This document shows positions 8,971 through 29,742 of a stretch of 64,000 nucleotides of DNA, in pieces. Below the pieces are notes generated by a model. That model ran no database searches and had not been told where the DNA came from. It saw only the letters and a list, made by a program, of their open reading frames with translations. Both the position numbers and the translations under genes were made by a program. This DNA comes from Synechococcus sp. CC9605 (GTDB taxonomy: Bacteria > Cyanobacteriota > Cyanobacteriia > PCC-6307 > Cyanobiaceae): contig NC_007516.1 of the NCBI RefSeq assembly GCF_000012625.1, positions 1,798,001 through 1,862,000 of the forward strand, in the 5' to 3' direction. The stretch's first letter is position 1. Every line of letters begins with the position of its first letter.

Positions 8971-9889
8971 CTGGCAGTGGAAGGGCTGGCCCTGCCACTG
9001 GCGGGTCAGCGGCCCTGAAGCAGGCCCTGCCCTGCTGCTGTTGCACGGTTTCGGCGCCGCCAGCGGACACTGGCGCCACTGCGCGCCGCGCCTGGCTGAT
9101 CAGGGATGGCGGGTCTACAGCCTGGATCTGCTGGGTTTCGGCCAATCCGCCCAGCCGGCGCGGCCGATGGACAACCGGCTCTGGGCCCTGCAGGTGTGCG
9201 CATTTCTCGATCAGGTGGTGCAAAGGCCAGCGGTGGTGATCGGCAATTCCCTGGGGGGCCTGACCGCACTCACCGCGGCGGTGCTGGCGCCGAACCGGGT
9301 GCGGGCGGTGGTCGCCGCGCCCCTGCCGGACCCTGCCCTGATTCAACCGTTGCCGAAACGGCGGGCGCCCTGTCGGCGGCGTTGGCAGCGGCGCCTGCTC
9401 GCCTTGGTGCTGCACGTGCTTCCGCTTGAACTTGTGGTGCCCTTGATCGCGCGCACGGGCTTGCTCAAAGCCGGGCTTCAGGGGGCCTACTGGAAGTCGA
9501 TCCAATCCGATCCGGAGCTACTGCAGCTGATCGCCCGTCCTGCCCGGCGCCCTACAGCAGCCCGGGCCCTGCGGGGCATGAGCCTGGGCATGGGTAACCG
9601 TCCCCGAGGCGCCACCGCGCCAGCCCTGCTCGAACAACTGCGGGTGCCGATGCTGCTGATCTGGGGCCGTCAGGATCGGTTTGTGCCCCTGGCCGTCGGG
9701 AAATCCGTGGCCGCCAGCCACACAGCACTCGAGCTGAAGGTGCTGGATCGCTGCGGCCACTGCCCCCATGACGAAGCGCCTGATCGCTTCCTGGCTGTGT
9801 TGTTGCCCTGGCTGGACCGTAACTTGGGAGGACCAGACCGGCAGGGGACGACCAGCGGCGATGAAACACACCCTTTCGGTGGTGGTTGA
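8924..9889 (+). CDS. Alpha/beta-fold hydrolase
   Basis: A 321-residue hydrolase of the large cyanobacterial alpha/beta family. It has the oxyanion segment [12 protein letters not shown] near residue 38, the [11 protein letters not shown] strand, the nucleophile elbow GNSLGG (Ser near 108), and a C-terminal catalytic His region ([12 protein letters not shown]) after GRQDRFVP. A cap region (about 140-225) is Arg/Pro-rich. The substrate is unknown; paralogues in this group are annotated as haloperoxidase-like or as pheophytinase-like. The start is GTG 8924, which overlaps the 5' end of the Trm1 gene on the other strand. The 3' end overlaps ilvH by 29 bp. Confidence 0.85.
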
Positions 9890-10391
9890 AGACGAGTCCG
9901 GCGCACTCAGCCGGATCGCAGGACTCTTCGCCCGACGCGGCTTCAACATCGACAGCCTGGCTGTCGGCCCAGCAGAGGCCGAAGGGCAGTCGCGCCTGAC
10001 CATGGTGGTGGAGGGCGATGACCAGACGCTCCAGCAGATGACCAAACAGCTGGACAAACTGGTGAATGTGCTTCAGGTCCTCGACCTGACCCAGCGCCCG
10101 GCTGTGGAGCGGGAGCTGATGCTGCTCAAAGTTTCAGCACCGGCAGCATCTCGGGGCGCCGTGATCGAACTCGTTCAGGTGTTCAGGGCCAAGGTGGTGG
10201 ACGTGGCTGATGAAGCCCTGACCCTCGAAGTGGTGGGTGATCCCGGAAAGCTTGTGGCCCTCGAACGGTTGATGGCCCCCTTCGGCATTCTCGAAATCGC
10301 CCGAACCGGCAAGGTGGCCCTTGAGCGGGCCTCAGGCGTGAACACCGAAATGCTCAAGGTGTCCCCCAGCCAGAGCCGGGTGCCGGCCTGA
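9861..10391 (+). CDS. ilvH: Acetolactate synthase small (regulatory) subunit
   Basis: A 176-residue protein with the N-terminal ACT domain of IlvH ([20 protein letters not shown], then [14 protein letters not shown]) and the conserved C-terminal ALS_ss domain (GRAEV-like AKVVDV and [16 protein letters not shown]). It activates the catalytic subunit for valine, leucine and isoleucine synthesis and confers valine feedback. ATG 9861 is inside the 3' end of the hydrolase gene, so the two are probably co-transcribed. It converges with the cyclophilin gene, 2 bp away. Confidence 0.95.
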
Positions 10392-10393
10392 GT

Positions 10394-11065
10394 TCACTCC
10401 TTTAACACCGCCTTGGCGATGCGATCTCCCTGTTGGATCGCGTCCACCATCTCAATGCCATCGACTACACGGCCGAAGACGGCGTATCGGCCGTCGAGTT
10501 CCGGCAAGGGACGCAAGGCCACATAGAACTGGGCACTAGCGGAATCAGGAGCCTGGGAGCGGGCCATGGCCACCGCTCCACGCTCGTGGGTCAACTCCAG
10601 GCCATCAAGTTCCGCCGGATTGGTGATGACCCTGCTGTAGCGGGGCTGCGGCTCGGATCGGAACTTGATCTCAAGCGGGATCATCCGCGCCTGGCCGTTG
10701 TCTGGATCCACAAAACTGCCGGTGCCGAGCTGCCCCAAGGGAACCGATCGATCACTGGATTGCGGATCGCCCCCCTGCACCACAAAGGGAACGGGCTCGC
10801 GAACAACGCGATGAAACATGGTTCCGTCGTAGGTGCCGCGCCGCACCAGATCGATGAAATTGCCGGAGGTGAGGGGAGCGGAATCGCCATTCACTTCAAT
10901 CGTAAACTCGCCCTGGCTCGTCTGCATGGTGACCGTGGCCAGGCCCTGCAGGCAGGCCGCCTGAGCATCAGCACAGCCGGTCACCACCGAAGCGCGCGGG
11001 GAAGGGCTGCAACTCACCAACAGAGGGATGAGCAGCAGCAGCGCCCAGGAACGAAGACGACGCAT
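10394..11065 (-). CDS. Peptidyl-prolyl isomerase, cyclophilin-type lipoprotein
   Basis: A 223-residue protein with a lipoprotein signal (MRRLRSWALLLLIPLLVSC, with the lipobox Cys at residue 19). The cyclophilin domain follows: GNFIDLVRRGTYDGTMFHRV, VVQGGDPQ and the C-terminal GRVVDGIEMVD. It probably folds exported proteins at the membrane. Longer upstream frames exist but the lipobox decides the start. It has the same strand as ycf4 and begins 4 bp after it, which suggests an operon. Confidence 0.92.
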   Translation of the reverse strand: MRRLRSWALLLLIPLLVSCSPSPRASVVTGCADAQAACLQGLATVTMQTSQGEFTIEVNGDSAPLTSGNFIDLVRRGTYDGTMFHRVVREPVPFVVQGGDPQSSDRSVPLGQLGTGSFVDPDNGQARMIPLEIKFRSEPQPRYSRVITNPAELDGLELTHERGAVAMARSQAPDSASAQFYVALRPLPELDGRYAVFGRVVDGIEMVDAIQQGDRIAKAVLKE

Positions 11066-11069
11066 CGGA

Positions 11070-11705
<636 letters not shown>

Positions 11706-17021: not shown

Positions 17022-18008
<987 letters not shown>

Positions 18009-18051: not shown

Positions 18052-18082
18052 TCTGAACCCATAAGGGTTCAGACCTTTTTTT
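18052..18082 (+). terminator. Rho-independent terminator after cysK
   Basis: A perfect 9-bp stem, TCTGAACCC (18052-18060) with GGGTTCAGA (18065-18073), a four-base loop ATAA, then CC and a run of seven T. It closes the core block before the AT-rich island. Confidence 0.9.
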
Positions 18083-18148
18083 CAGGCACAAACACGCAAG
18101 AGGCAAAACTCAAAACGCGTGTTAAAAGGTTTCTGATTAGGCACTGAC

Positions 18149-18694
18149 ATGGAACAGCAAGCTGTGGTCAGCCTGGGGAGTCTGGAGGAATCACTAGGAC
18201 TATCACGAGTTGATCTTCTTCTGGTGATCCGGGAGTTGGGGATTCAGCCCGTTCGAAAAGGAATGAGGACCTGGATCAAACAGGAGGAAACTGGCCTCAT
18301 CTATCAACACCTGGGCAGAAGCGATCCCAAAGAGCCCTTGGTTGCCGAAGTGGTCACCGTCGAACCATCCACTCCCAACAATGAGTTGATGGTGACGAAC
18401 AATCAGGGTGGTGGAAGTGTAGACGAGGAGTTCAAAAAGTATTCAAGGCTACGGTTACTAAGAGAGAGAATTCAAGTCCTTGACCTACTTCGATCGACGG
18501 CAATCGAGCTGACAAGTCATGAAATTTGCTTGCTGCTGGAGCTCAAACGACTCCCATCACTGGAACAACTAGACGATGGAGCCGTCGGCTTCAGGCGCAT
18601 GGGACTTGAATTTGAAAAAGTTACACGGCCAGGGCAGCGCCTAAGCTGGAAAGCGCGGCAAATACTCAGATCTCAAAATATTCAGGGTTCCTGA
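18149..18694 (+). CDS. Hypothetical protein with HTH-like N-terminus, 181 aa
   Basis: No named family was recognised. Residues 9-45 (LGSLEESLGLSRVDLLLVIR, then GMRTWIKQEE) have the rhythm of a helix-turn-helix followed by a wing. The middle (about 75-90) is Asn/Gly-rich and probably flexible. Residues 95-175 form a helical domain (LRERIQVLDLLRSTAIELTS). It could be a DNA-binding protein; that is inference. It is the first gene after the cysK terminator and marks the change to AT-rich sequence, so it may regulate or simply border the island. Confidence 0.65.
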   Translation: MEQQAVVSLGSLEESLGLSRVDLLLVIRELGIQPVRKGMRTWIKQEETGLIYQHLGRSDPKEPLVAEVVTVEPSTPNNELMVTNNQGGGSVDEEFKKYSRLRLLRERIQVLDLLRSTAIELTSHEICLLLELKRLPSLEQLDDGAVGFRRMGLEFEKVTRPGQRLSWKARQILRSQNIQGS

Positions 18695-18750
18695 CCAACC
18701 TGCTGCCTTCAAGCAAATCCGCTTAGTTTTAAAATATATGAAAAGTACAT

Positions 18751-19353
18751 ATGGCTGGGTTTACGACTGCTTTTGCGACCGTAGCCCTGGCAGGCATCGG
18801 AGATAAATCATTTTTAACCGCTCTTGCTTTAGCAGCACGCCACAAAGCTCGTTGGGTTTTTATTGGAAGCGTGTCTGCACTCACAGTCGGAGCGGGCCTT
18901 TGGATCGGGATGGGTGCATGGCTAAATACATTAGTTTCAACAGAAACAGTCAAATTTGTATCCGGTATTACATTTTTAGCATTTGGAGCATTAGCTCTGA
19001 GTCAGGTCTATCAATGCCATTCAAATCCTGAGATTGACGCAAAATTAACATCGGATAAATTAATGTGTGATGTGAGAGACCAAGGGGCCGAAATTGTCAT
19101 TCGCAACTCATTTACAACAACCTTCTTGGCCGAATTCGGGGATCGCACTCAGCTAGCCCTATTAGCGCTAGCGGCAGGTCCGAACATTTCTGCCTCAAGC
19201 ATTTTTACTGGAGCAGTTGCAGCCAATTTCTTGCTCGTTATTGCAGCTGTTTCGTCAGGAAAACTCTTGAGGAACCATCTAAGCTACAAAAAATTATCTT
19301 TTTGCAGCGGTATTCTTTTTCTAGCGCTCGGCGTCAGAATTCTTGCAACGTAA
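18751..19353 (+). CDS. UPF0016/GDT1-family cation transporter with altered first motif
   Basis: A 200-residue, six-helix membrane protein made of two halves, as in the GDT1/TMEM165/Mnx family, whose members exchange Mn2+ or Ca2+. Each half normally has E-x-G-D-(K/R)-(S/T). The second half is complete (EFGDRT, Glu128), but the first reads GIGDKS (residues 15-20), with glycine in place of the glutamate. The central loop has a Cys-containing segment (YQCHS...LMCDV). Transport by the family is known; the effect of the substitution is not. It lies at the edge of the AT-rich island and converges with the pseudo-ATPase gene. Confidence 0.85.
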   Translation: MAGFTTAFATVALAGIGDKSFLTALALAARHKARWVFIGSVSALTVGAGLWIGMGAWLNTLVSTETVKFVSGITFLAFGALALSQVYQCHSNPEIDAKLTSDKLMCDVRDQGAEIVIRNSFTTTFLAEFGDRTQLALLALAAGPNISASSIFTGAVAANFLLVIAAVSSGKLLRNHLSYKKLSFCSGILFLALGVRILAT

Positions 19354-19372
19354 ATAGAAGGCTTTAATTACC

Positions 19373-21481
19373 CTAAATAGACTTGAATCGAGAGCAATTT
19401 GGAGACAATGACCTCAGCGTATTCAATTCGGCGATGACACTAGGAGCATTAAACAAAATAATTAATTGTAGAGGGTTCAAAGCGGATACAAAAGAGGCGA
19501 GAGTAAGAATGATCGAAGAACCAACAATTAGATTTGTATTCACCTGCTGTGATCGCTCATAATTACGGCCTAGAGCGATTAAACGCGGCAACCAATTAAG
19601 ATCGCCTGCAAGGATAACATCACAAACTGTTTTTGAAATAAAACCATCGGGATCCTCTTCAAAGCCGATGGCTACTTCTGCAGCAGCCATGGCTAAAATG
19701 TCATCAATGACGTTCCCAAGGTAAGCCACCTTTTCGCCTGCCCGACGACGCTTGGAGACGGACAAAAGGCGATCCTGTGGTTCTCGCAGGCGAGCAGCGT
19801 GAGTTCCAACAACTTGAACGGACACACCGAGAAAAGCCAAATCATCTACCATTTGACCGTAATCAGGATCTGGAATCCAACGAATCAGAAGCGAGCCCAA
19901 TGTCCCAGTTTGACCTTCGAATCGAATTATCACGTCATCCCTATCGTTCGCAAATTGAATTCGAACAGATTTACCATTGCTGAAATCAACATTGTATGCG
20001 CAGCATTCAGGTTGATCAGATGTGATCTCCAAATGGTCAATAGGCCAAGCCTCCACCGACTGAGCTTCCAGAATTCCCCAAAAAACAGTTGTTGGGTCTG
20101 CCCTCAAATAGTCAGCAACGGAATTCAGCATACGAAGCATGTCGCCTGGCTCTGCTGACGTAACAGAGGGAACTACTTCTGAATAGTTGTAATTTCCGAA
20201 ATATTGAAGAGCATCAATACTTATCAAGAGAGTACTCAAATCGGAAAGGGTCTTCAGTGCTCGAATATCGGAAATATGTACACGATTGAGGCGCATATCA
20301 AGTAGAGCGGTTTCAGCCGATGACATTCGGGAACGCTCGGAATCTTTTGCAGGGCTAAAAGCAAGAAGACCAATCGCGCGTTCCGTGAAGCCACTGAACA
20401 AAGACCAAGCCGCTAATCCCAACTGAACAGGAGGAACAAATAATCGATATATAGACGACACAGATTGCTGATATTCGGTGAAAGACTCCTCCTCAAACAA
20501 GGTGTTTTGGATTTTAAATACTGGAATATCAACGAAAGCCATCGTTACTTCTGCGATGGCACTTCCGTACAGGACAGTAGCCCCGAAAGGAAGATGATCC
20601 CCAGGGCAAGCACGCAATGGCAGCTTTGATCCGTCAGCAAGATTATTCAAAACAACTAATTCACCTTCAACGAGCTTCGATGTCAAATAAACGTGGCATT
20701 TGTTGTTGATTTCGTAGCGTTGACCAACCTGAACATCACAAATGGGAACAAGCCTGGTCTCGTTTTGTTCTTGGGTCTGGCATGGCAGAAAAACCGAGTT
20801 TTTGAAACGCTCCAGGAAATCAAAGAACTCGAGACTGGAACCATCGGTGTTCTGAGACAATGACTGAAGAGCAGATGTCGTGCTGCCAAGGAGACCATCA
20901 ACAAGGAGCTCCTGTGCCAGGCCCGATGAGATCAGGGTCGCCGACAAAGCCACTTCCACAGACGAGGATGGCAAAAGTTCGGAAGCAACAGCATTACCGC
21001 TGGACAACCAGCGATCACGCATCTGCGACCAGAACTCGCGCAACAAAGGAAAACAGAACATTGTGGCCGCAAGCCCCAATGCCAAAGGAGGAAAGGCCAC
21101 CAGTGAGTTAATCAGCAAAATCGAGCCACAAGTGGCACCTGTTTTCAAGGCCGATCGGAACGAAGAACTCCTAACAATATCTGTGGTTGACGATTCGGCT
21201 GAGAGCAGACTCTCAAAGCTCGAATCTGCAAAAGGATCGACAAAACATCTCCTGAGCAAGAGCTCGATCTGGTGTTGCTCGTTGGCAGGAAAACGAAGGA
21301 CAAGCGTCCCAGAGATGCCATTGATGCGGTGGCTCAGTAACCAATGAGTACGATGAAGCACACCAGCGCAATGGCGACGTAACCCGGGTGAGTCGGAAAG
21401 ACCGGGGTGAAAAATCCTGAGACGTCCACAAAAATCACTGCGAATCTGCCAAGGGTGATCAACAAGTGTCGAAGTCGTCAT
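19373..21481 (-). CDS. Degenerate P-type ATPase homologue (probable pseudoenzyme), 702 aa
   Basis: This aligns by eye with the active-looking P1B-type ATPase two genes upstream but has lost its catalytic motifs. The N-terminus (about 10-65) carries an HMA-like basic domain with CGRLRIFHP. The actuator TGES position reads ADGS (282-285). The phosphorylation loop DKTGTLT reads DALQYFG (423-429): the Asp remains but Lys-Thr-Gly-Thr is gone. GDGIND reads GNVIDD (589-594). Two hydrophobic pairs remain in the N-terminal half and one at the C-terminus (about 645-690). The frame is intact over 700 codons, so it is maintained and not simply decayed. It is likely a regulatory or structural partner of the pump. 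Confidence 0.75.
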   Translation of the reverse strand: MTTSTLVDHPWQIRSDFCGRLRIFHPGLSDSPGLRRHCAGVLHRTHWLLSHRINGISGTLVLRFPANEQHQIELLLRRCFVDPFADSSFESLLSAESSTTDIVRSSSFRSALKTGATCGSILLINSLVAFPPLALGLAATMFCFPLLREFWSQMRDRWLSSGNAVASELLPSSSVEVALSATLISSGLAQELLVDGLLGSTTSALQSLSQNTDGSSLEFFDFLERFKNSVFLPCQTQEQNETRLVPICDVQVGQRYEINNKCHVYLTSKLVEGELVVLNNLADGSKLPLRACPGDHLPFGATVLYGSAIAEVTMAFVDIPVFKIQNTLFEEESFTEYQQSVSSIYRLFVPPVQLGLAAWSLFSGFTERAIGLLAFSPAKDSERSRMSSAETALLDMRLNRVHISDIRALKTLSDLSTLLISIDALQYFGNYNYSEVVPSVTSAEPGDMLRMLNSVADYLRADPTTVFWGILEAQSVEAWPIDHLEITSDQPECCAYNVDFSNGKSVRIQFANDRDDVIIRFEGQTGTLGSLLIRWIPDPDYGQMVDDLAFLGVSVQVVGTHAARLREPQDRLLSVSKRRRAGEKVAYLGNVIDDILAMAAAEVAIGFEEDPDGFISKTVCDVILAGDLNWLPRLIALGRNYERSQQVNTNLIVGSSIILTLASFVSALNPLQLIILFNAPSVIAELNTLRSLSPNCSRFKSI

Positions 21482-21490
21482 GGGATCGCT

Positions 21491-22015
21491 TCAAGCAACG
21501 AAGGGGCGACGCAAGTCCAGTGCAGTTTCAAATAAAAGAGTGGCGAGCAGCATGATCCACAGACCTGGAAACAGGGGGAGATAGAGGCCAACAAGCCCGA
21601 AAACAAATGCCACAGAAGCCAATAGAAGACATCCCACGGACAATGAAGCCGAGAATGCGTTCACAACGGGATAGAGAAAAGACCGAAGCTCCAACCAAAC
21701 GCGGTTCGGAGAAGGTTTGACCACCTCTACCTTGCTTAGTGGAATCGTAGACAACTGGCAACCTTGATGGTTTAGTTGATCGACGACCGCAGAGTAGACA
21801 AACTGAAATAAATAGTCTTGATTAATAGATAAAGATGATCTGGAACTGATCACAATCAGGCAAGTGGATTGGTTGAGCCGAAGACACCACTGGTTTGAAG
21901 GGAAAACATCCTCTAAATCCCGTTGCAACAAAGCCCAGTTCAGTGGAACAGAGGAATCAACATAAAATCGCCAGCGTGTTGGGGTTTGGTGCTTCAGGAC
22001 CAACCTTGAGGTCAT
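21491..22015 (-). CDS. Small membrane protein: HMA-like domain plus C-terminal hairpin, 174 aa
   Basis: The start ATG 22015 sits two bases after the stop of the P-type ATPase gene, so the two are coupled. Residues 1-75 form a small alpha/beta domain that opens with TRWRFYVDSSV, like the basic first strand (R-x-R-x) of the HMA-like domains in the neighbouring ATPases. After a linker (LSKVEVVKPSPNRVWLELRS) come two hydrophobic helices joined by GLYLPLFPGLW, a Pro-Gly turn. The architecture matches the protein at 25995-26444. The N-terminal domain might belong to the HMA-related group reported in bacteria near P-type ATPases (CoBaHMA); that is recalled, not tested. Confidence 0.6.
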   Translation of the reverse strand: MTSRLVLKHQTPTRWRFYVDSSVPLNWALLQRDLEDVFPSNQWCLRLNQSTCLIVISSRSSLSINQDYLFQFVYSAVVDQLNHQGCQLSTIPLSKVEVVKPSPNRVWLELRSFLYPVVNAFSASLSVGCLLLASVAFVFGLVGLYLPLFPGLWIMLLATLLFETALDLRRPFVA

Positions 22016-22017
22016 GA

Positions 22018-24507
22018 TCAGGCTGCAATCACTGAGAAAGATTTTCGCTTTGAGCAGTATTGCCAAGCATGGCCATCTGGATCGCGCTCAGCAATCCAAT
22101 CGCTGAAATCAGGACGTCGTCTGCGGGCCGAAATCTTCTGATAACTCACACCAACGCGTTTTGCCAGCCCAGAGAGGTCAAGGTCAAGGATTGGCTGAGA
22201 ATCGGGATCCGACTCAGAAGCCACGACATCGACGAGATCTCTACGAGTGGATGGTTTTGCAGACGGCAGTGCCTTCGCCTTGAAGCCCAGGGCTCTGATG
22301 GCATTGCCGGCAGCCACCAAACAAGAACCATTATTTAGGAAAACTGCTGCGATTGGGCTGACAGGGAGGAAGGTTCCAATGAGCAGTGCAGACAGATTCG
22401 GGACGCCAACAATCCCGATGTTTTGCTTTACGAGAGCAAAGGTGTGACGGGCAAGATCCTGAGCCACAATCAGATCGGACACACGATCGTTGGTGAGAAC
22501 AACGTCGGCGGTTTCCCGGGCCAAGTCACTTCCAGAGGCGAAGGACACTGACACATCTGCATAGGCCAGTGCAGCTGAATCGTTTATGCCATCTCCAACG
22601 AAAACAACCTTCTTCCCCTGAGAGGTGAAGTGCTGAACCAATTCAGCCTTCTGATCAGGGAGTGCATCAGAATGAACTTCTTCAGGCTTCAGCCCGATTT
22701 CTGCAGCCACAGCATGTGCCACTGTGCCGATGTCGCCGGTAAGCATGTGGGCTTCGATGCCACGGCGATGAAGCTCCGCGATCAAATCTGGAGTATCAGG
22801 CCTTACACGGTCGAGAGCGTAGTGGATAGCTACCAATACCCCATCAAGAGCCAAGTAGATCGGTGTCGCTACAGCAAGATCGGGGCGCTCCTCAATTGAA
22901 GGGATTTCAACTCCTTCCTCAAGAAGAAGTTTGGAATTTCCAAGCAATGCTTGTTGTCCATTGACACTGGCAACTACACCACGACCAACCCTGTAGTCCC
23001 AAGCGTCACAGGGAATGACATCGATCTCCTCACACTCTGCAGAATCACGAATCGCCTTGGCGATTGGATGATTAAGCCCTTGCTCTAAAGAGGTCGAAAG
23101 TTGCAAGAGTTCTTTTCTACGAGCATCGGAGACGGTCTGGATGGGACGCCCCTCAGTGTCAAAAATGGCGAAGTGAACCACCGAAGGATGCCCTTCCGTG
23201 AGTGTTCCAGTCTTGTCGAAGATCACCACATCGACATCAACCAATTGCTCGAGGGCGCGGCCGCTCCGAATTAAAAGACCCTGGCTACTTGCACGGGCCA
23301 AAGCGGCCATGATTGCAGTTGGCACTGAAACACGAAGTCCGGTACCAAGGTCAAACATCAGTAGCGATGCAGCCTGAGCAATATTGCCCGCGCTTAGGAG
23401 CAACGAGACTCCCGCGAGAGCAAGGGTGGGCAAAACAAAGCGGTTCGCGATGTTGGCAGCAAAATTACCGACGCGTGTGTCAAACACAGGCGCCGATTCG
23501 ATCATTTTTGTGATTTGACCCACCCTTGTGTCATCGCCGACAGCCGTTGTTGTGACAACCAAATTACCTTCAAGAACTATAAAACCAGCAAGAATTTCAT
23601 CCCCAGGTCCCGAGATTCTCGGTACAGACTCACCAGTCAGCTTGACCACATCAAGTGATGCTTCACCAGAATCAATCACACCATCAATAGGAATCTTGTC
23701 GCCAGGGAGGAATGAAACCCGATCTCCAGGAGACAGGTCAAAGCTAGAAACAATCACTTCACCTTTGTCAGTAATCAAACGGACATCCGACTGAAGACTG
23801 GAGACAAGATCAGTGTTGGAGGAATGAGCAATTCGCTGGGTCGCATCACGAACTGCCTCACCGCCCTCAATCATCGTGATCATCATCGCTGGCCCGAGTA
23901 GGAACCCTTCAAGGCTGTGAAGAAGAACAGCCAATGCATCAAGAAAATCTACGTTGATTTTCTTTTCATGTTTGAGCCCAGACCAGGCTCGCCTGAAGCT
24001 GAGATGCGCCGAACCTATGATGAAAACACCTATCGCCAATGGGGGTAGCGAAAGAGGCCCAGCCAGAATGGCTAAACCTAAGGAGCAGACGGGCAAAATG
24101 ATACGAGTCGGTACAAATTTTTCATCATCATCTTCGCCAATTCCTTCAATTGTAGATGAAGACGACTTAATAGCTTCAGGCACAAAGGGTATATCGCTCG
24201 TAAGCTGAGGTAAAGAAAGCAACCACTGAAATGGGTCAGTGGCTGAATCCTCTTTGAAAACAATGACGTAACAACAAGCCCATTTGTTAGAACGTACGTG
24301 AAGGACGCTGGGAAGAGAATGCAGATGACGCTCAAAATTATCAAAGTCTTCAAAATCGGATTCAACACTAAATCTCAATCGCCGCTTTGATGCATGAAGA
24401 ACTCTGTCAACGAACCGGGGCAAACCCATTTTCGGATGACCATTCGAAGCAGAAACTCCTCCTTCGAGTACTTCAAAATCAGAGGGCAATTGGTAGGAAG
24501 TAGCCAT
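22018..24507 (-). CDS. P1B-like P-type ATPase without a CPx motif, 829 aa
   Basis: All P-type catalytic motifs are present: TGES (291-294), DKTGTLT (431-437, phosphorylated Asp431), HP (480-481), MLTGD (588-592), VGDGINDS (637-644). Residues 35-90 form an N-terminal HMA-like domain with ASKRRLRFSV and no CxxC. Membrane helices are near 135-170, 190-215, 355-375 and 380-400, with a final pair around 690-735. The transmembrane metal motif normally written CPC, SPC or CPH reads LGTGLRVSVP (387-396), so the substrate cannot be inferred from the usual classes. The C-terminal tail (777-817) looks like a short helix-turn-helix unit (LAKRVGVSYQKISARRRRP). It is the likely active core of the island. 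Confidence 0.88.
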   Translation of the reverse strand: MATSYQLPSDFEVLEGGVSASNGHPKMGLPRFVDRVLHASKRRLRFSVESDFEDFDNFERHLHSLPSVLHVRSNKWACCYVIVFKEDSATDPFQWLLSLPQLTSDIPFVPEAIKSSSSTIEGIGEDDDEKFVPTRIILPVCSLGLAILAGPLSLPPLAIGVFIIGSAHLSFRRAWSGLKHEKKINVDFLDALAVLLHSLEGFLLGPAMMITMIEGGEAVRDATQRIAHSSNTDLVSSLQSDVRLITDKGEVIVSSFDLSPGDRVSFLPGDKIPIDGVIDSGEASLDVVKLTGESVPRISGPGDEILAGFIVLEGNLVVTTTAVGDDTRVGQITKMIESAPVFDTRVGNFAANIANRFVLPTLALAGVSLLLSAGNIAQAASLLMFDLGTGLRVSVPTAIMAALARASSQGLLIRSGRALEQLVDVDVVIFDKTGTLTEGHPSVVHFAIFDTEGRPIQTVSDARRKELLQLSTSLEQGLNHPIAKAIRDSAECEEIDVIPCDAWDYRVGRGVVASVNGQQALLGNSKLLLEEGVEIPSIEERPDLAVATPIYLALDGVLVAIHYALDRVRPDTPDLIAELHRRGIEAHMLTGDIGTVAHAVAAEIGLKPEEVHSDALPDQKAELVQHFTSQGKKVVFVGDGINDSAALAYADVSVSFASGSDLARETADVVLTNDRVSDLIVAQDLARHTFALVKQNIGIVGVPNLSALLIGTFLPVSPIAAVFLNNGSCLVAAGNAIRALGFKAKALPSAKPSTRRDLVDVVASESDPDSQPILDLDLSGLAKRVGVSYQKISARRRRPDFSDWIAERDPDGHAWQYCSKRKSFSVIAA

Positions 24508-24557
24508 TGGAAGTGAAGTGGAAGATTTGGACTTTTAGAAGCAAATATACCAAGACT

Positions 24558-24899
24558 TTATTCCACAGTAACGTCAGTGATGGTGGGAGATGTTGATTCG
24601 TTTTTTGTGATTGTTGATACGGCAACATCCTCGGTGCTGGAGTTTTCAGATTTCGCCTCTTCGACCAAATCGACAACTGTTTCAGCCACTTCCGCAGCAC
24701 TTTTAGCTACGCCTTTGGCGACTTTTTCTGCTGTACCGACAGCTACAAGACCAATTTTCACACCACTCTTGGCCATTTTCCGACCAGCTTGTCCCATCGA
24801 ATCTCCGAGCTCTTGATTGCCTAACTTTCGAACAACAGGCGCCATTGCCATTAGTGCAGCTCCAGCTCCAAAGGCTGCAAGCGTTTCAAGCTCGAACAT
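24558..24899 (-). CDS. Small glycine-rich one-helix protein, DUF5132-like, 113 aa
   Basis: It begins MFELETLAAFGAGAALMAMA, an amphipathic start plus a membrane helix with Gly/Ala spacing. A repeated G-K helix follows (AGRKMAKSGVKIGLVAVG), then an Ala/Glu coiled region and an acidic Ser/Thr tail. It shares its start and the AGR...K.G.K.G pattern with the protein at 26441-26749, so the two are paralogues. The pattern resembles DUF5132 proteins, which I recall sitting beside HMA-type P-type ATPases. The gene is 50 bp upstream of the pump gene on the same strand. Confidence 0.6.
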   Translation of the reverse strand: MFELETLAAFGAGAALMAMAPVVRKLGNQELGDSMGQAGRKMAKSGVKIGLVAVGTAEKVAKGVAKSAAEVAETVVDLVEEAKSENSSTEDVAVSTITKNESTSPTITDVTVE

Positions 24900-24972
24900 A
24901 AGCTATTAGATTCTCATCAACACTATCATGTCTTTCAAGAAAGGAATTTTTAAAATGCCGATATACTGATAA

Positions 24973-26142
24973 GTGATTCCATCAAAGCTATTGATCATCT
25001 TTGCCAGCGCTGATAGGTATCAAGCACTACAGAAAGTCGTTAGTGCTATTGCAAGCCATCTAAAAAAAGAACGAAAATTGAAAGTTATCGATATGTCTGG
25101 AGAGAGATTAAACCTATTATTAGAAAACAAAAACTCAACTATCTCATACTTCGATCATAGTCAAATAGTCGACGATATTTGGATGATGTTAAACCCACAC
25201 GCTTTGGAATGGTGGAAGCTCTTAGGACTTGAAGACAAAGATTCTTTGGAATTACCTTGCCTACCTGGGATTGAAGACCTAACGCGTATCATCAAACTTG
25301 CACAAGTCATTGATGAGCACAAAGACTTTAATCTTCTAATAGTGATTCTCCCTCACCCTCTGCACGCGATCAAGCTTCTGCAGATGGCCCAAAAAGGACC
25401 CGATTTGGTTGAGCAACTTGTCGACCCCCTATTGAATTGGTGGGATAAGACACGCAAGTCTTTATCAGCCGTAGAAAAAATGTTTCGACTCAATCTACCC
25501 TCCTCAAAGAGATTACGATTAGAAGATGTGTGGAAGAAAAAGTTTGAAACGCTTCAGAGAATTACTTCAGAGAGGAATCAGCACAATTTCATTTGTTTCA
25601 TTGATCAGGAATCGAGAAATCTTGATCAACTGCAGCACCGATTCAGCAACTTTGCACTACATGGCGGATTCCCAACACATCTTGTTATTCAAGATGCAGA
25701 AAAGTTGATCGTGGAGCAAATTGAAAGTGACTGCTCCGACATCCCATTCACACTTATCAAATGGCCTGAAGAGAAACAGCAAGATATCGCAAAAATGCTG
25801 TTGGAAGCGCCCTCTAATCGACGAACCAAATTCACCAACAAAAATGATAGGTCAATCAATATATTTATGCCTGGGGTTCAAAAAAAGTCTTTAAAGATTA
25901 AACAAACTATCGATAATATTTATCTAATTTATCAGGGTAATCACAGAGCAATAGAGATTCCTGAGGCGTGGAAGAAGATGCGATGTGGACGTGCTCAAAT
26001 AAAATTATCCTGGTTAACATTATTTTTTTTGGATGACATCGAGGATGGTCTCCACCCCAACCACCATGCAACAAGGAAAAAAGGGGTCCCCGGAAGGATT
26101 GGCAAAATCCAACCCAATACTGCCAATCCGAGTGATACTTGA
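24973..26142 (+). CDS. ArsA/GET3-like protein without a P-loop (probable pseudo-ATPase)
   Basis: A 389-residue protein with the ArsA layout but no nucleotide site. Where ArsA has GKGGVGKTT after the first strand, residues 6-20 read LLIIFASADRYQALQ. The strand usually ending D-x-A-P-T-G-H/E-T-L-R-L-L reads VILPHPLHAIKLL (124-136). Residues 292-352 match the C-terminal HSP20-like domain of ArsA homologues (INIFMPGVQKKSLKIK, then GNHRAIEIP). The start is GTG 24973, divergent from the DUF5132-like gene. The last 148 bp overlap the gene on the other strand; the part after about residue 352 has no family support. A role as a non-hydrolysing adaptor is inference. Confidence 0.6.
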   Translation: MIPSKLLIIFASADRYQALQKVVSAIASHLKKERKLKVIDMSGERLNLLLENKNSTISYFDHSQIVDDIWMMLNPHALEWWKLLGLEDKDSLELPCLPGIEDLTRIIKLAQVIDEHKDFNLLIVILPHPLHAIKLLQMAQKGPDLVEQLVDPLLNWWDKTRKSLSAVEKMFRLNLPSSKRLRLEDVWKKKFETLQRITSERNQHNFICFIDQESRNLDQLQHRFSNFALHGGFPTHLVIQDAEKLIVEQIESDCSDIPFTLIKWPEEKQQDIAKMLLEAPSNRRTKFTNKNDRSINIFMPGVQKKSLKIKQTIDNIYLIYQGNHRAIEIPEAWKKMRCGRAQIKLSWLTLFFLDDIEDGLHPNHHATRKKGVPGRIGKIQPNTANPSDT

Positions 26143-26444
26143 ATACTAAGGTTTACAGCGTGCAGACGAAAAGATTCGAAACGGGTAGGTGGAAGATCTG
26201 GACCGAGAGGAAAAAATTCCTCAAAGAAGCTGTTCAACTCATCTAAAAGTGCTCCTGAGTCGATTTGTTTGTAGTCTGTTATACGAACAACACACCCTGA
26301 TCGAAAAGATGATGGAAATATTTCAAAGCCTGAATATCGGTACTTAACTGTCGAATACATTAAATTAAATTCTTGACGCGACAGGGTTCTCGGAAATTTG
26401 AATCGAACTCGCCGTTTCGTAGCGTGTTTGATCGAAACCTTCAA
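25995..26444 (-). CDS. Small membrane protein: HMA-like domain plus C-terminal hairpin, 149 aa
   Basis: It opens with a basic strand (ATKRRVRFKFPRTLS, residues 8-22) like the HMA-like domains of the local ATPases. The domain extends to about residue 75. Two hydrophobic helices follow (about 95-113 and 118-130) joined by LPILPGTP, a Pro-Gly turn, and the tail is basic (WWLGWRPSSMSSKK). It has the same design as the protein at 21491-22015. Its 5' end overlaps the upstream DUF5132-like gene by 4 bp and its 3' end overlaps the ArsA-like gene on the other strand. Confidence 0.6.
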   Translation of the reverse strand: MKVSIKHATKRRVRFKFPRTLSRQEFNLMYSTVKYRYSGFEIFPSSFRSGCVVRITDYKQIDSGALLDELNSFFEEFFPLGPDLPPTRFESFRLHAVNLSIQVSLGLAVLGWILPILPGTPFFLVAWWLGWRPSSMSSKKNNVNQDNFI

Positions 26445-26749
26445 GCCTTAGAGGTTCCCGAAGCTTTCGTGGGTTTGGTTTCTGCCAGATCAGCCTTGGC
26501 TTCTGCAAGGATATCTCCGAAGCTTTCACCAACTTCGCTCAAACCAGACTTAACACCGGTAAAAAGACCAGAGGCTTTGGATACAACCACGATTCCAACT
26601 TTTAAGCCTTGCTTAGTGATACTTCGCCCTGCCCCTGAAATTGCTTTGGTTAGTCTGCTCTCACGACCCGAAACAGATGCAGCAATGGGTGTAATGGCTA
26701 CCAAACTAGCCCCCAATGCAAACGCAACCAGGTATTCTAGCTCGAACAT
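26441..26749 (-). CDS. Small glycine-rich one-helix protein, DUF5132-like, 102 aa
   Basis: A paralogue of the protein at 24558-24899: MFELEYLVAFALGASLVAIT at the start, then SGAGRSITKQGLKVGIVVVS, then an Ala/Glu helix and a Lys/Thr/Ser tail. A single membrane helix is predicted at residues 6-24. It is coupled by a 4-bp overlap (ATGA) to the HMA-like hairpin protein downstream. The pair of genes thus repeats, in another order, the unit found beside the pump. Confidence 0.6.
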   Translation of the reverse strand: MFELEYLVAFALGASLVAITPIAASVSGRESRLTKAISGAGRSITKQGLKVGIVVVSKASGLFTGVKSGLSEVGESFGDILAEAKADLAETKPTKASGTSKA

Positions 26750-26882
26750 GTTTTTCGAGAGTCACTACTACCAAATACTAGACAAAAATCAGTTTGGTGT
26801 GAAGTCAGGCATCAACATTACTGGTCTTTGACGAGGATTTCAACACACGATCAGGAAGAGTACTGATTCGGGGCAAAGCCGT

Positions 26883-27545
26883 TTAGGCAACCTGTGTAAC
26901 AAGAGACAGAATAATTGAAAATATTGTCGATGCAAAAAGGAACGATGAAAGACAATGAACAAGAACAATACGACGTACGGATGCATCCTCTAAGCCACAA
27001 TCAGTCATCGAATATGTCAAACCGATCGAATAAGAGATGTACAGAAAATCACTAAATGATGGCTCATTCCCTTCAAAAATAAATCCATGTTGCGTATCAT
27101 CAGCAGCTAGCGGAGTAGGATTCATCTCGTAATACCTTTTGGCATAATAAAGAGCGAAACCATTGTGCAGCTCCAACCACATCAAGAACAAAGCTAAAAA
27201 CGCAGTAAAAATATGAACGCGGTTTGGCAATGCATCCTGGGGCGAATGGAGCTCTGTAAGACAAAAGCTCAACATTCCAAGACTGAGAAAAACCAAAGCA
27301 ATGGTTCTTTCTGCTACCAATGACTCTCTGGCTTCAGAACATGAAAGAATTTCTCTAGTACGGGCAGTACTAAGTAGCCATGTTCTGCGTAAAAAGATAA
27401 GCAAATCACATGTCAAAGCCAGAGAAATCGCGACCGTTAAGGTTTCCCTTACGGAGAGAAGTGGCAAGAGTACAACAGTTGAAAGAGTTCCGACTAAAAA
27501 GGCGCGTGTAAGTCGATAGCTATCAGATAAATAACGTAATCGCAT
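26883..27545 (-). CDS. DUF1345-like membrane protein, 220 aa
   Basis: About five to six membrane helices. The diagnostic C-terminal block, EPSFSDFLYISYSIGLTYSM, followed by RRIVLVHCLSSFLF, matches what I recall of DUF1345 (a domain that looks like half of a two-helix ion channel). The function is unknown. It ends 133 bp from the DUF5132-like gene and starts 3 bp after the antiporter-like gene, with which it is probably co-transcribed. Confidence 0.7.
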   Translation of the reverse strand: MRLRYLSDSYRLTRAFLVGTLSTVVLLPLLSVRETLTVAISLALTCDLLIFLRRTWLLSTARTREILSCSEARESLVAERTIALVFLSLGMLSFCLTELHSPQDALPNRVHIFTAFLALFLMWLELHNGFALYYAKRYYEMNPTPLAADDTQHGFIFEGNEPSFSDFLYISYSIGLTYSMTDCGLEDASVRRIVLVHCLSSFLFASTIFSIILSLVTQVA

Positions 27546-27548
27546 GGG

Positions 27549-28961
27549 TCAAATTGCATCTGTCTGCGATGATTTTAATTTTGAAAAAAGACTATAATGA
27601 AGCCGTGGTACTACAAAAGCCTTAAAAATGAGGGATATGAGTACAGCTCCACATACGACGTCAGACATGAACATGGCGGAGGTTTCGGGAAGAATTTCGG
27701 AAACTTTAATTCCAAAAGTATCTTCTAAAAGTAAAGGAGCGGTTACAATCAGTGCCATTGAAATAGCACCTTTTGGACTCCAAGCGGCGAGAAGCTTTCT
27801 CTCTTCGGCGCTGACTGCATCGCGCCGAAAAAATAAAAACACAGTAATAGGCCTTATAAGAATAATCCCGATCCATGCATACAAAGCAACCGGAAGATGA
27901 GCGAAGAAGAGACCAGGTTGCAAACCTAGGCCAATCGCGAAAAACAGAATAGCCTCGCAAGCAATATTCAGAGATTCAAGCTGTTCTGAAAGAAATTCAA
28001 TTTCATCTTCGGTTGAATTATTGCGGTAGGACAACGAAGTGGTAATACCCATAACTAGGGCGCAAAGGTATCCACCCTGCTGGACAGCAAGGAAAGCAAT
28101 AGTGTAACCAATAAAAGTGAACGAAACAGCAGCAAGAATTAGCTGAGATTTGGACTCCAAAAAGAAGCGAATGGTATAAGTTAACAGTAAGCCGAGCATC
28201 AAACCACTCACCGATCCGATGAATAAACCTCTAAAAATGGAGACTAAGAGACTTGCATCAGCAAAACTTGCATACTCAGGATTCAAAGTAATCCAAATGA
28301 GTACAAGTATTTCAGCAACTGCGACAGAAATCGCAGCCGATACAGCAGTTTCAACCTTAAAAATATTGGAAATGATAAATCTAAAGTCTTTTATTTTTTT
28401 CGATACAAATACAAAGGAGTTCCAATCCTGAACTGCCAGTGAAAAGACAGCTGCCACTGCCGCCAACCAGACAATGCTGGAGGGAACGCCCTCCAGGTAA
28501 CCAAAATTACTCTGAAAAAACGAGAATCCAAGGCCAAGATAGAACAACCAGAACACCATGCTTATGAAGGTTCCAAACAAAGCCAGATAAATCGAATTTG
28601 GAAGAACTTTGTTTTTCCGAAGAAGGCAACCTTCAAATGATAAACCGCTGAAAAAAAGTAAAATACTCAAGGCGACGACATGAAGCTCTTCAAGTGGGAA
28701 CAGATCGAAATTGTATCCCGATATGTGAAAGAAAAGCCCACTAAAAAATAATAATATAGAGCCTGGCATGCCAAACTTTGCTCCCAACTTGTCAAACACG
28801 ATGCTTGAGATTATCAGCAGAGACAAGCAAAGTAGTGCAGATTCAAATGTAAAATGAAAAGATGTAATGCCTTCAAAAAAACCCTCTGCAGCCTCGGCTG
28901 TTGAAAGATGGGATTCACCACCCTCTGCCTCGAGTGAAGCCAAGATCAGCTGAGAGGGCAT
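27549..28961 (-). CDS. CPA-type cation/proton antiporter homologue without the Asn-Asp pair, 470 aa
   Basis: A 12-13-helix protein of the NhaP/Kef fold; an N-terminal extension of about 35 residues precedes the first helix. LLFFSGLSFEGCLL (101-114) is typical of CPA1. The ion-site segments are unusual: the unwound-helix motif TDP aligns with QDW (178-180), and the essential N-D pair in the next helix (E-S-x-x-N-D) reads E-T-A-V-S-A (204-209). In CPA proteins this Asp carries the ion, so transport may be lost or changed. The start is MPSQLILASLEAEGG. It is divergent from the carbonic anhydrase gene. Confidence 0.75.
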   Translation of the reverse strand: MPSQLILASLEAEGGESHLSTAEAAEGFFEGITSFHFTFESALLCLSLLIISSIVFDKLGAKFGMPGSILLFFSGLFFHISGYNFDLFPLEELHVVALSILLFFSGLSFEGCLLRKNKVLPNSIYLALFGTFISMVFWLFYLGLGFSFFQSNFGYLEGVPSSIVWLAAVAAVFSLAVQDWNSFVFVSKKIKDFRFIISNIFKVETAVSAAISVAVAEILVLIWITLNPEYASFADASLLVSIFRGLFIGSVSGLMLGLLLTYTIRFFLESKSQLILAAVSFTFIGYTIAFLAVQQGGYLCALVMGITTSLSYRNNSTEDEIEFLSEQLESLNIACEAILFFAIGLGLQPGLFFAHLPVALYAWIGIILIRPITVFLFFRRDAVSAEERKLLAAWSPKGAISMALIVTAPLLLEDTFGIKVSEILPETSAMFMSDVVCGAVLISLIFKAFVVPRLHYSLFSKLKSSQTDAI

Positions 28962-29094
28962 AGCAAAAGCAAAACCTTAATGACCCTATGTTGGTAGGTG
29001 AATCCTCCATCATGTTTATGAGGATTTCATGATTTTTTCAATCATGAGCTGATCCTCGGTTCATGGTTAATTCACCAATTCAAGAAGTGGCAAG
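28962..29094. promoter_or_regulatory. Divergent control region with two inverted repeats
   Basis: The spacer between the divergent antiporter-like and carbonic anhydrase genes. It holds AATCCTC (29001-29007) facing GAGGATT (29020-29026), and directly after it a perfect 8-bp inverted repeat TCATGATT (29027-29034) and AATCATGA (29040-29047) around TTTTC. These could be operator half-sites or hairpins in the leader of the carbonic anhydrase mRNA. No consensus promoter was assigned with confidence. Confidence 0.4.
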
Positions 29095-29742
29095 ATGGAT
29101 GAGAAAGAAGGCTCCTACATCGATTCGGGTTGGGGTCTGGATGATCCCAGCGCAATCGTCGAGGAGCTCAAGGCAGGGTTCCAACGTTTTCTCGAAGGAC
29201 ATACTGCCCATCCGCATGCCTCAGAAGCAAGGCGTCATCAGCTAGCAGGCGGTCAACATCCTCAAGTTGCACTTCTGGCCTGCTCTGACTCACGAGTTCC
29301 CGTTGAGGTGATCTTCGATGCCGGCTTTGGCGATCTTTTTGTGATCCGTAACGCCGGTAACACTAATACGTTCGGGTCAGCCGGTTCCATCGAATACGCC
29401 GTGCTTGACCTCAATGTTCGTGTTTTGGTAGTTATGAGCCATCAAGGCTGTGGAGCAGTCAAGGCGGCTTATCTCAAGGAGGCAAGCTTCTCGGCATCGC
29501 TCACCGAGCTTGTTACTGACATAAAGACAGGCCTTACCAGTCATGGCATTAGCACCGATGACCTCAGTAGCTACAACGATGCCTGTTTGCGCCACGCCAG
29601 CATTACCGCAACCTCGTTGATGGACACCAGTGCCCCGATCTTCGATGCTGTCCAGAACAAAAGGTTGATGATTCAACCAGCCTTTCTCCATATCGATCCT
29701 CTGGCCATCTCCTGGTTGCCTCCGCTTTATGGACGCGGCTGA
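29095..29742 (+). CDS. Beta-class carbonic anhydrase
   Basis: A 215-residue zinc enzyme that interconverts CO2 and bicarbonate. The zinc ligands and catalytic dyad are visible: CSDSR with Cys63, Asp65 and Arg67, and HQGC with His116 and Cys119. The surrounding [13 protein letters not shown] and [10 protein letters not shown] are family blocks. The second site reads [10 protein letters not shown] rather than the common GHSDCGA, so it belongs to a diverged branch. No signal peptide is visible. It closes the island and its 3' end overlaps queA by 16 bp on the other strand. Codon use is intermediate between island and core. It is not the carboxysomal CsoSCA. Confidence 0.92.

Follow-up and report, generated by a model that had tools for sequence, protein, structure and literature searches.

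A P1B-type ATPase homologue without catalytic residues, encoded beside an intact pump in Synechococcus sp. CC9605

Analysis of a 64,000-nucleotide window of the Synechococcus sp. CC9605 genome (NC_007516.1, positions 1,798,001 to 1,862,000; coordinates below are those of the window) revealed a minus-strand gene at 19373-21481 whose product, judged from its sequence, is a P1B-type ATPase homologue without catalytic residues, here called the dead pump. The reading we favor, with a probability of roughly 60%, is that this protein is a stable non-catalytic protomer of a heteromeric cation pump, the other protomer being the intact pump encoded two genes upstream. Homology, motif loss, purifying selection, a tight operon, and co-occurrence with the intact pump are established by the data; the complex and its cation are inferred.

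The frame is open over 702 codons, in agreement with the initial annotation, and the 702-aa product comprises an HMA_2-like N-terminal domain, the A, P, and N domains, and membrane segments. Its hydrophobic stretches fall in the regions expected for eight membrane helices, where the structural model is poor. The complete relative that had been placed nearby is the protein encoded at 22018-24507, which carries DKTGT, TGES, and GDGIND; BLASTP aligned the two at 21% identity (E 2e-7). The dead pump scored below the cut-offs of the family models, with 36.6 bits against NCBIfam TIGR01512 (cut-off 313.5), 23.6 bits against Pfam E1-E2_ATPase (cut-off 28.1), and a weak 12.6 bits (E 0.13) against HMA_2 (PF19991; cut-off 30). 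Of 17 family members compared with HMA_2, 13 gave a match at E 1 or lower, the best at 7.6e-5, and a profile built from 17 members of the dead-pump family matched the P1B copper pump 7si3 in the PDB with E 1.3e-28.

A 74-row alignment disclosed the extent of motif loss in the window protein: D-G-S-K stands at TGES, GNVIDD replaces GDGIND, and Ser421 (within ISIDALQ) occupies the column of the catalytic Asp. AD is found at the N-domain HP motif, and neither GxG nor TGD is retained in its column; the alignment is uncertain in the N domain. These replacements bear out the loss of catalytic motifs first noted from the sequence, where TGES had been read as ADGS. DKTGTLT is indeed lost, but the register first given for it (DALQYFG) is two residues off, the Asp aligning with Ser421. 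Both AlphaFold models have a strand at 417-421 that terminates in Ser421, the place of the phosphorylated Asp in P-type ATPases.

None of the 27 relatives longer than 600 aa contains DKTGT. This set derives from 28 proteins of that length without the motif, one of which (L061, close to L021) was left out; the copies of genomes G078 and G086 are not among the 27 counted, and for one dead-pump relative, L059, the source contig is assigned to a different phylum. As the 27 dead pumps and 41 comparison pumps were sorted by DKTGT, the presence of the Asp in 41/41 pumps holds by construction. The catalytic Asp position is occupied by Ser in 22 dead pumps and by Thr in the other five, the Glu of TGES is retained in a single one, the P-domain Lys has become Arg in 25, and HP and GxG are missing from most. 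Other positions were preserved, including the last Asp of GDGxxD (27/27), the first Gly of GDGxND (26/27), the TM5 Asn (25/27), an Asn or Asp in TM6 (26/27), and Arg-20 and Arg-22 of the HMA domain (27/27), and all 27 share a new Pro in TM4. The Ser/Thr bias at the Asp position goes beyond chance, and this bias, the loss of the other motifs, the single clade, and the gene position are evidence independent of the sorting by DKTGT. As sampled here, the aligned sequences place motif loss in the whole dead-pump clade.

Phylogenetic trees grouped the 27 dead pumps in one clade with an SH-aLRT of 100, under long-branch warnings, and nine of the 27 again formed one clade at 100/100 in a 44-row tree; the dead pumps nest among HMA_2-type pumps with an Asp in TM4. 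A search across 388 genomes of the taxonomic class led us to inspect 22 loci outside the family (L088-L109), all of which carry DKTGT. A search with the partner of G574 gave matches in 37/388 genomes (E up to 1e-100), and among the 30 loci returned and inspected, a further kind of partner, with Ala in place of the catalytic Asp, appeared in three, in genomes G542, G574, and G647 (families f15, f24, and f23, respectively). In these Ala-partners the motif is still readable, for example as AKTGTLT, and HP and GxG are kept, while the hinge reads GEG[IM]DD and TGES is changed, so that they differ from a live pump beyond the Asp. The three loci share the order small protein, pump, short DUF454-like protein, dead partner. 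The last two genes adjoin in G574, are separated by a 200-aa ORF in G542, and lie about 2 kb apart in G647 with an opposite-strand ORF between them; the interrupted locus, L114, is the one of the three in which an ORF on the other strand stands between pump and dead partner. The Ala-partners joined the 27 dead pumps at an SH-aLRT of 89 in the 74-row tree, again with long-branch warnings, and fell in an unresolved fork in the 44-row tree, which kept 9/27 dead pumps and 8/20 pumps. On these sequence trees, all dead partners may go back to one origin or to several.

The dead pump could still be an enzyme of altered chemistry, acting through the conserved Ser or Thr at the Asp position or through another residue. 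The restriction of this position to Ser or Thr in 27/27, which is not random, and the invariant last Asp of GDGxxD are in line with such an activity. We nevertheless regard it as very improbable, as the protein also lacks HP, GxG, TGD, and TGES, its N domain is conserved less than any other part, and in the Ala-partners of other families the Asp position holds no nucleophile.

Structure prediction, proposed at the outset as a check on the fold, returned P1B ATPases. An AlphaFold model built from eight rows, three of them pumps, had a mean pLDDT of 60, and P1B structures led the fold search made with it (4umw, E 5.6e-22, TM-score 0.41); KdpB structures were also among the fold matches of the dead-pump model. 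Superposition of its P and N domains on CopA (PDB: 3a1d) gave Z 17.6 and rmsd 3.5 over 225 residues. When the input was reduced to five rows, all of them dead pumps, the mean pLDDT was 48, and Foldseek again listed P1B ATPases first (7si3, E 1.1e-16, at low model confidence). Given the low TM-scores, the models support the individual domains and not the full predicted model. A different fold is ruled out by the profile match, the fold searches, and the CopA superposition.

The dN/dS ratios of the dead pump, likewise suggested initially as a check among strains, were 0.125-0.195 by NG86 (10 of 11 pairs computable) and 0.108-0.237 by YN00 (9/11), values that put the gene under purifying selection. 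Those of the intact pump were 0.046-0.109 (NG86, 6/7 pairs) and 0.051-0.112 (YN00, 6/7), and the dead pump exceeded it by a factor of 1.7-4.2 over the six shared pairs (NG86); the pair of the window with G024 is saturated in both genes, the G004-G005 pair is nearly so, and three pairs share genomes. Within the genus, and with domain borders drawn by eye, mean identity in the dead pump is highest in the HMA_2-like domain (0.64) and M1/M2 (0.63) and lowest in the N domain (0.33). The intact pump shows 0.90-0.99 in M1/M2, A, M3/M4, P, and M5/M6, and 0.62 in its HMA_2-like domain. A decaying pseudogene would also have lost its catalytic motifs, but 27 relatives retain open frames longer than 600 aa, which together with these ratios rules it out, leaving this explanation a negligible probability; the copies are not decaying, so that the scattered decaying copies under relaxed selection, named in advance as a refutation, did not appear. 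The initial proposal of selection for a non-catalytic role thus gains support from the 27 relatives without DKTGT, from the dN/dS values, and from co-occurrence with the intact pump in 22/399 genomes.

The dead pump is the last gene of a minus-strand operon in the order small membrane protein (24558-24899), intact pump (22018-24507), DUF454-like membrane protein (21491-22015), and dead pump. The small membrane protein gene lies 50 nt before that of the pump; DUF5132 matched 21 of 29 members of its family (E up to 1), the 24558-24899 protein itself being unmatched. The 829-aa intact pump has FDLGTGLR in TM4 and is recognized by NCBIfam as a heavy-metal P-type ATPase. The DUF454-like protein bears an H..R.R N-terminal segment; its listed ORF extends to a TTG at 22066, and the likely ATG at 22015 would place its start 2 nt after the pump stop and its end 9 nt before the dead pump. 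Among 28 dead pumps, 19 have a DUF454-type gene immediately upstream, with gaps of -62 to +44 nt. Of the other nine, two lie at contig starts (L059, L023) and one is 1.6 kb off (L071); four stand at loci of Na/Ca-exchanger-family genes (L062, L068, and a tandem pair in L064), and the last two are the divergent second copies of g5 genomes (L075, L076).

The operon is part of an 11.7-kb block of low GC content (18060-29726, edges approximate), with 45.8% GC against 63.2% and 64.6% in the flanks, the lowest-GC stretch of its length in the window when scanned in 500-base steps. It is bordered by a gene at 17022-18008, which we take to be cysteine-synthase-like, and by a queuosine-synthesis gene at 29727. 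On the plus strand the block encodes a GDT1/UPF0016 divalent cation/proton antiporter (18751-19353), convergent with the dead pump, an ArsA/Get3-like protein without a P-loop (24973-26142; itself a second apparent pseudo-ATPase), and, at the block edge, a beta-type carbonic anhydrase (Pro_CA; 29095-29742). Its minus strand holds a second DUF454-like protein with an H..R.R N-terminus (25995-26444), a second small membrane protein that matches DUF5132 above the cut-off (26441-26749), a DUF1345 membrane protein (26883-27545), and a cation/proton antiporter-like protein (27549-28961) with an NCBIfam match below the cut-off. The P-loop motif was found in 0/14 aligned members of the ArsA/Get3-like family. 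A conserved 181-aa block protein at 18149-18694 on the plus strand had no Pfam match above the cut-off.

The block is missing from its site in 8/8 congeners examined, drawn from the 27 genus genomes without a dead pump and compared at that site only; there, the queuosine gene comes next after the cysteine-synthase-like gene. Absence as a unit suggests that the block was gained or lost as a whole. At one otherwise empty site (L169 in G022), a DUF1345 paralogue with 36% identity stands alone.

Full-length relatives of the dead pump, at 42-90% identity, occur in six genus genomes besides that of the window (7/34), and GDT1 is found in the same 7/34 (E up to 1e-20). Because the block is missing as a unit, co-occurrence of the pump and the dead pump within the genus alone proves little and could reflect linkage. 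An order search and the neighborhoods revealed more dead pumps in further genera of family f1, to which the genus belongs. Across the order, the intact pump (E up to 1e-150) is present in 22/399 genomes, and the dead-pump profile (E up to 1e-10) detected the same 22, with two candidates scored per genome in most. As this profile also touches pumps, each of the 22 genomes was checked at its locus, which confirmed a dead pump in all, that of G375 as a fragment at a contig end. A dead pump without the intact pump was found in 0/399 order genomes at the thresholds used.

These data also bear on the idea that the dead pump is a passenger of the low-GC block, held under weak constraint and with a minor role or none in the work of the pump. 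Its lower constraint relative to the intact pump and the absence of the 46% GC block as a unit in the congeners would be expected of a passenger. We consider this improbable, since dN/dS is well below 1 in all ten computable pairs, other genera keep the core of pump, DUF454-like protein, and dead pump amid different neighbors, and a core with an Ala-partner also exists in three other families.

Some dead pumps stand apart from the operon. The draft genome G018 has its dead pump and its pump operon on separate contigs (L023 and L024), and nothing occupies the usual place of the dead pump in that operon, between GDT1 and the DUF454-like gene. Extra dead pumps in g9 genomes lie directly behind a Na/Ca-exchanger-family gene (L062:8032-10419; L064:6632-8752 and 8982-11231; L068:7968-10229), G155 carrying two in tandem behind such a gene, and g5 genomes carry a second, divergent dead pump. 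The exchanger-linked extra copies and the divergent g5 copies imply that the partner of the dead pump may differ.

Such arrangements could fit a protein of pump descent that acts on its own as a regulator, sensor, or receptor. Its HMA_2-like domain and membrane helices would bind the cation or a partner, and it would control several transporters (pump, exchanger, antiporter) without being a stoichiometric subunit. The exchanger-linked copies in three g9 genomes (L062, L064, L068), the place of the HMA_2-like domain among the best-kept parts of the protein, and the unlinked dead pump of G018 are all compatible with this role. It appears unlikely, however, in view of the 19/28 copies immediately behind the DUF454-type gene of the pump operon and the lack of any order genome among the 399 with a dead pump but no pump at the thresholds used. 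The initial annotation had offered a heteromeric subunit or a dominant regulator; the subunit is the best reading of the operon and the co-occurrence, whereas the dominant regulator is not told apart from it.

In the favored arrangement, the dead pump would sit in the membrane beside the intact pump, probably in contact by way of the HMA_2-like domain and the membrane helices; the small membrane protein and the DUF454-like protein may join the two. Presumably unable to be phosphorylated, the dead pump would not cycle but could fix, feed, or gate the working protomer. As to the cation, a hard divalent ion (Ca2+ or Mn2+) is the most likely choice, and this is the weakest step of the proposal. 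It is suggested because the pump has an Asp in TM4, in place of the CPC of other P1B pumps, and because GDT1 and Na/Ca-exchanger-family genes are neighbors. The TM4 Asp is present in 41/41 comparison pumps, and Mn2+ transport by UPF0016 proteins is reported in the portion of the literature consulted. Several observations count against a protomer, namely dN/dS above that of the pump, possible linkage within the genus, the extra copies at exchanger genes, the interrupted L114 locus, the contig split in G018, and the low pLDDT. More tentatively, a two-protomer pump of live and dead partners may have evolved from an unlike live pair, within a platform including the P-loop-less ArsA-like protein, in which two former ATPases would serve one pump, probably for Ca2+ or Mn2+. 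The steps would be a canonical pump with a GEGIND pump, then the change of Asp to Ala, then the loss of all motifs.

P-type ATPases are usually described as pumps with all catalytic parts in one chain. KdpFABC is a P-type ATPase that acts with other subunits and shares with the present operon the presence of partner proteins; its partner KdpA is channel-like rather than a dead P-type paralogue. A live and an altered homologous protomer act together in heterodimeric ABC exporters with one degenerate site, which belong to another superfamily and serve as a working analogy for the dead pump and pump. Comparison with P1B heavy-metal ATPases (CopA, the zinc pump, ATP7B; 3a1d, 4umw, 7si3) revealed common A, P, and N domain homology, the dead pump differing by its lack of DKTGT, TGES, TGD, HP, GxG, and the TM4 CPC. 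Cyanobacterial HMA_2-type pumps with the TM4 Asp have the same kind of N-terminal domain and differ from the dead pumps in the catalytic motifs, the groups having been sorted by DKTGT. The CoBaHMA domain, related to calcyanin, has conserved basic residues in an HMA-like fold; in the dead pumps, Arg-20 and Arg-22 are kept in 27/27. A tie to calcium carbonate formation by way of calcyanin and this domain was considered and is not claimed here. In the parts available, PMC11773610 and PMC12710302 mention calcyanin and not the dead-pump gene set.

A further working analogy is the mycobacterial PacL/CtpC system, in which a P1B-like pump is encoded in an operon with a small single-TM protein and membrane platforms are proposed; related DUF6110 proteins are encoded with P1B6 pumps (PMC9374683, PMC13043812, both in the sections consulted). 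The likeness is that of a P1B-like pump with a small membrane protein in one operon. The small proteins here match DUF5132 and not DUF1490 or DUF6110: DUF1490 was not listed for any of the 29 members scanned (E up to 1), and the alignment, inspected by eye, showed in none of them a His-rich C-terminus, the sign sought of a C-terminal metal-binding motif. The sections of PMC9374683 and PMC13043812 consulted mention no dead pump either.

The titles and abstract openings listed from the open-access literature searched (in one search, 15 of 346 matches) contained no earlier description of a dead P-type ATPase partner kept in bacteria, nor did the accessible part of the review PMC10654040 describe dead P-type ATPases. 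A P-type ATPase and a pseudoenzyme partner are each of a known kind; judging by these searches, the pairing of a live pump with a dead P-type paralogue is new. Kept beside a live pump, the dead-pump clade would be a natural experiment on what the A, P, and membrane domains do without phosphorylation, and would open heteromeric P-type pumping to direct tests. A functional setting would likewise emerge for the unnamed DUF454-like, DUF5132-like, and ArsA-like families in marine cyanobacteria.

Two contigs that hold parts of the block, L059 and L061, are filed as Deltaproteobacteria UBA6967 and Rhodopirellula MED697, respectively, and are probably misbinned. Carriage of the dead pump by phages or plasmids was set aside: one scan of viral contigs with the window dead pump gave four pattern matches, none confirmed by tblastn, and plasmid records held no match at E 1e-5. 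The intact pump has plasmid relatives, the best at 42% identity. Live pairs, in which a GDGIND pump and a GEGIND pump lie on one strand 2-5 kb apart, were observed at L110, L111, L112, L113, L116, and L126.
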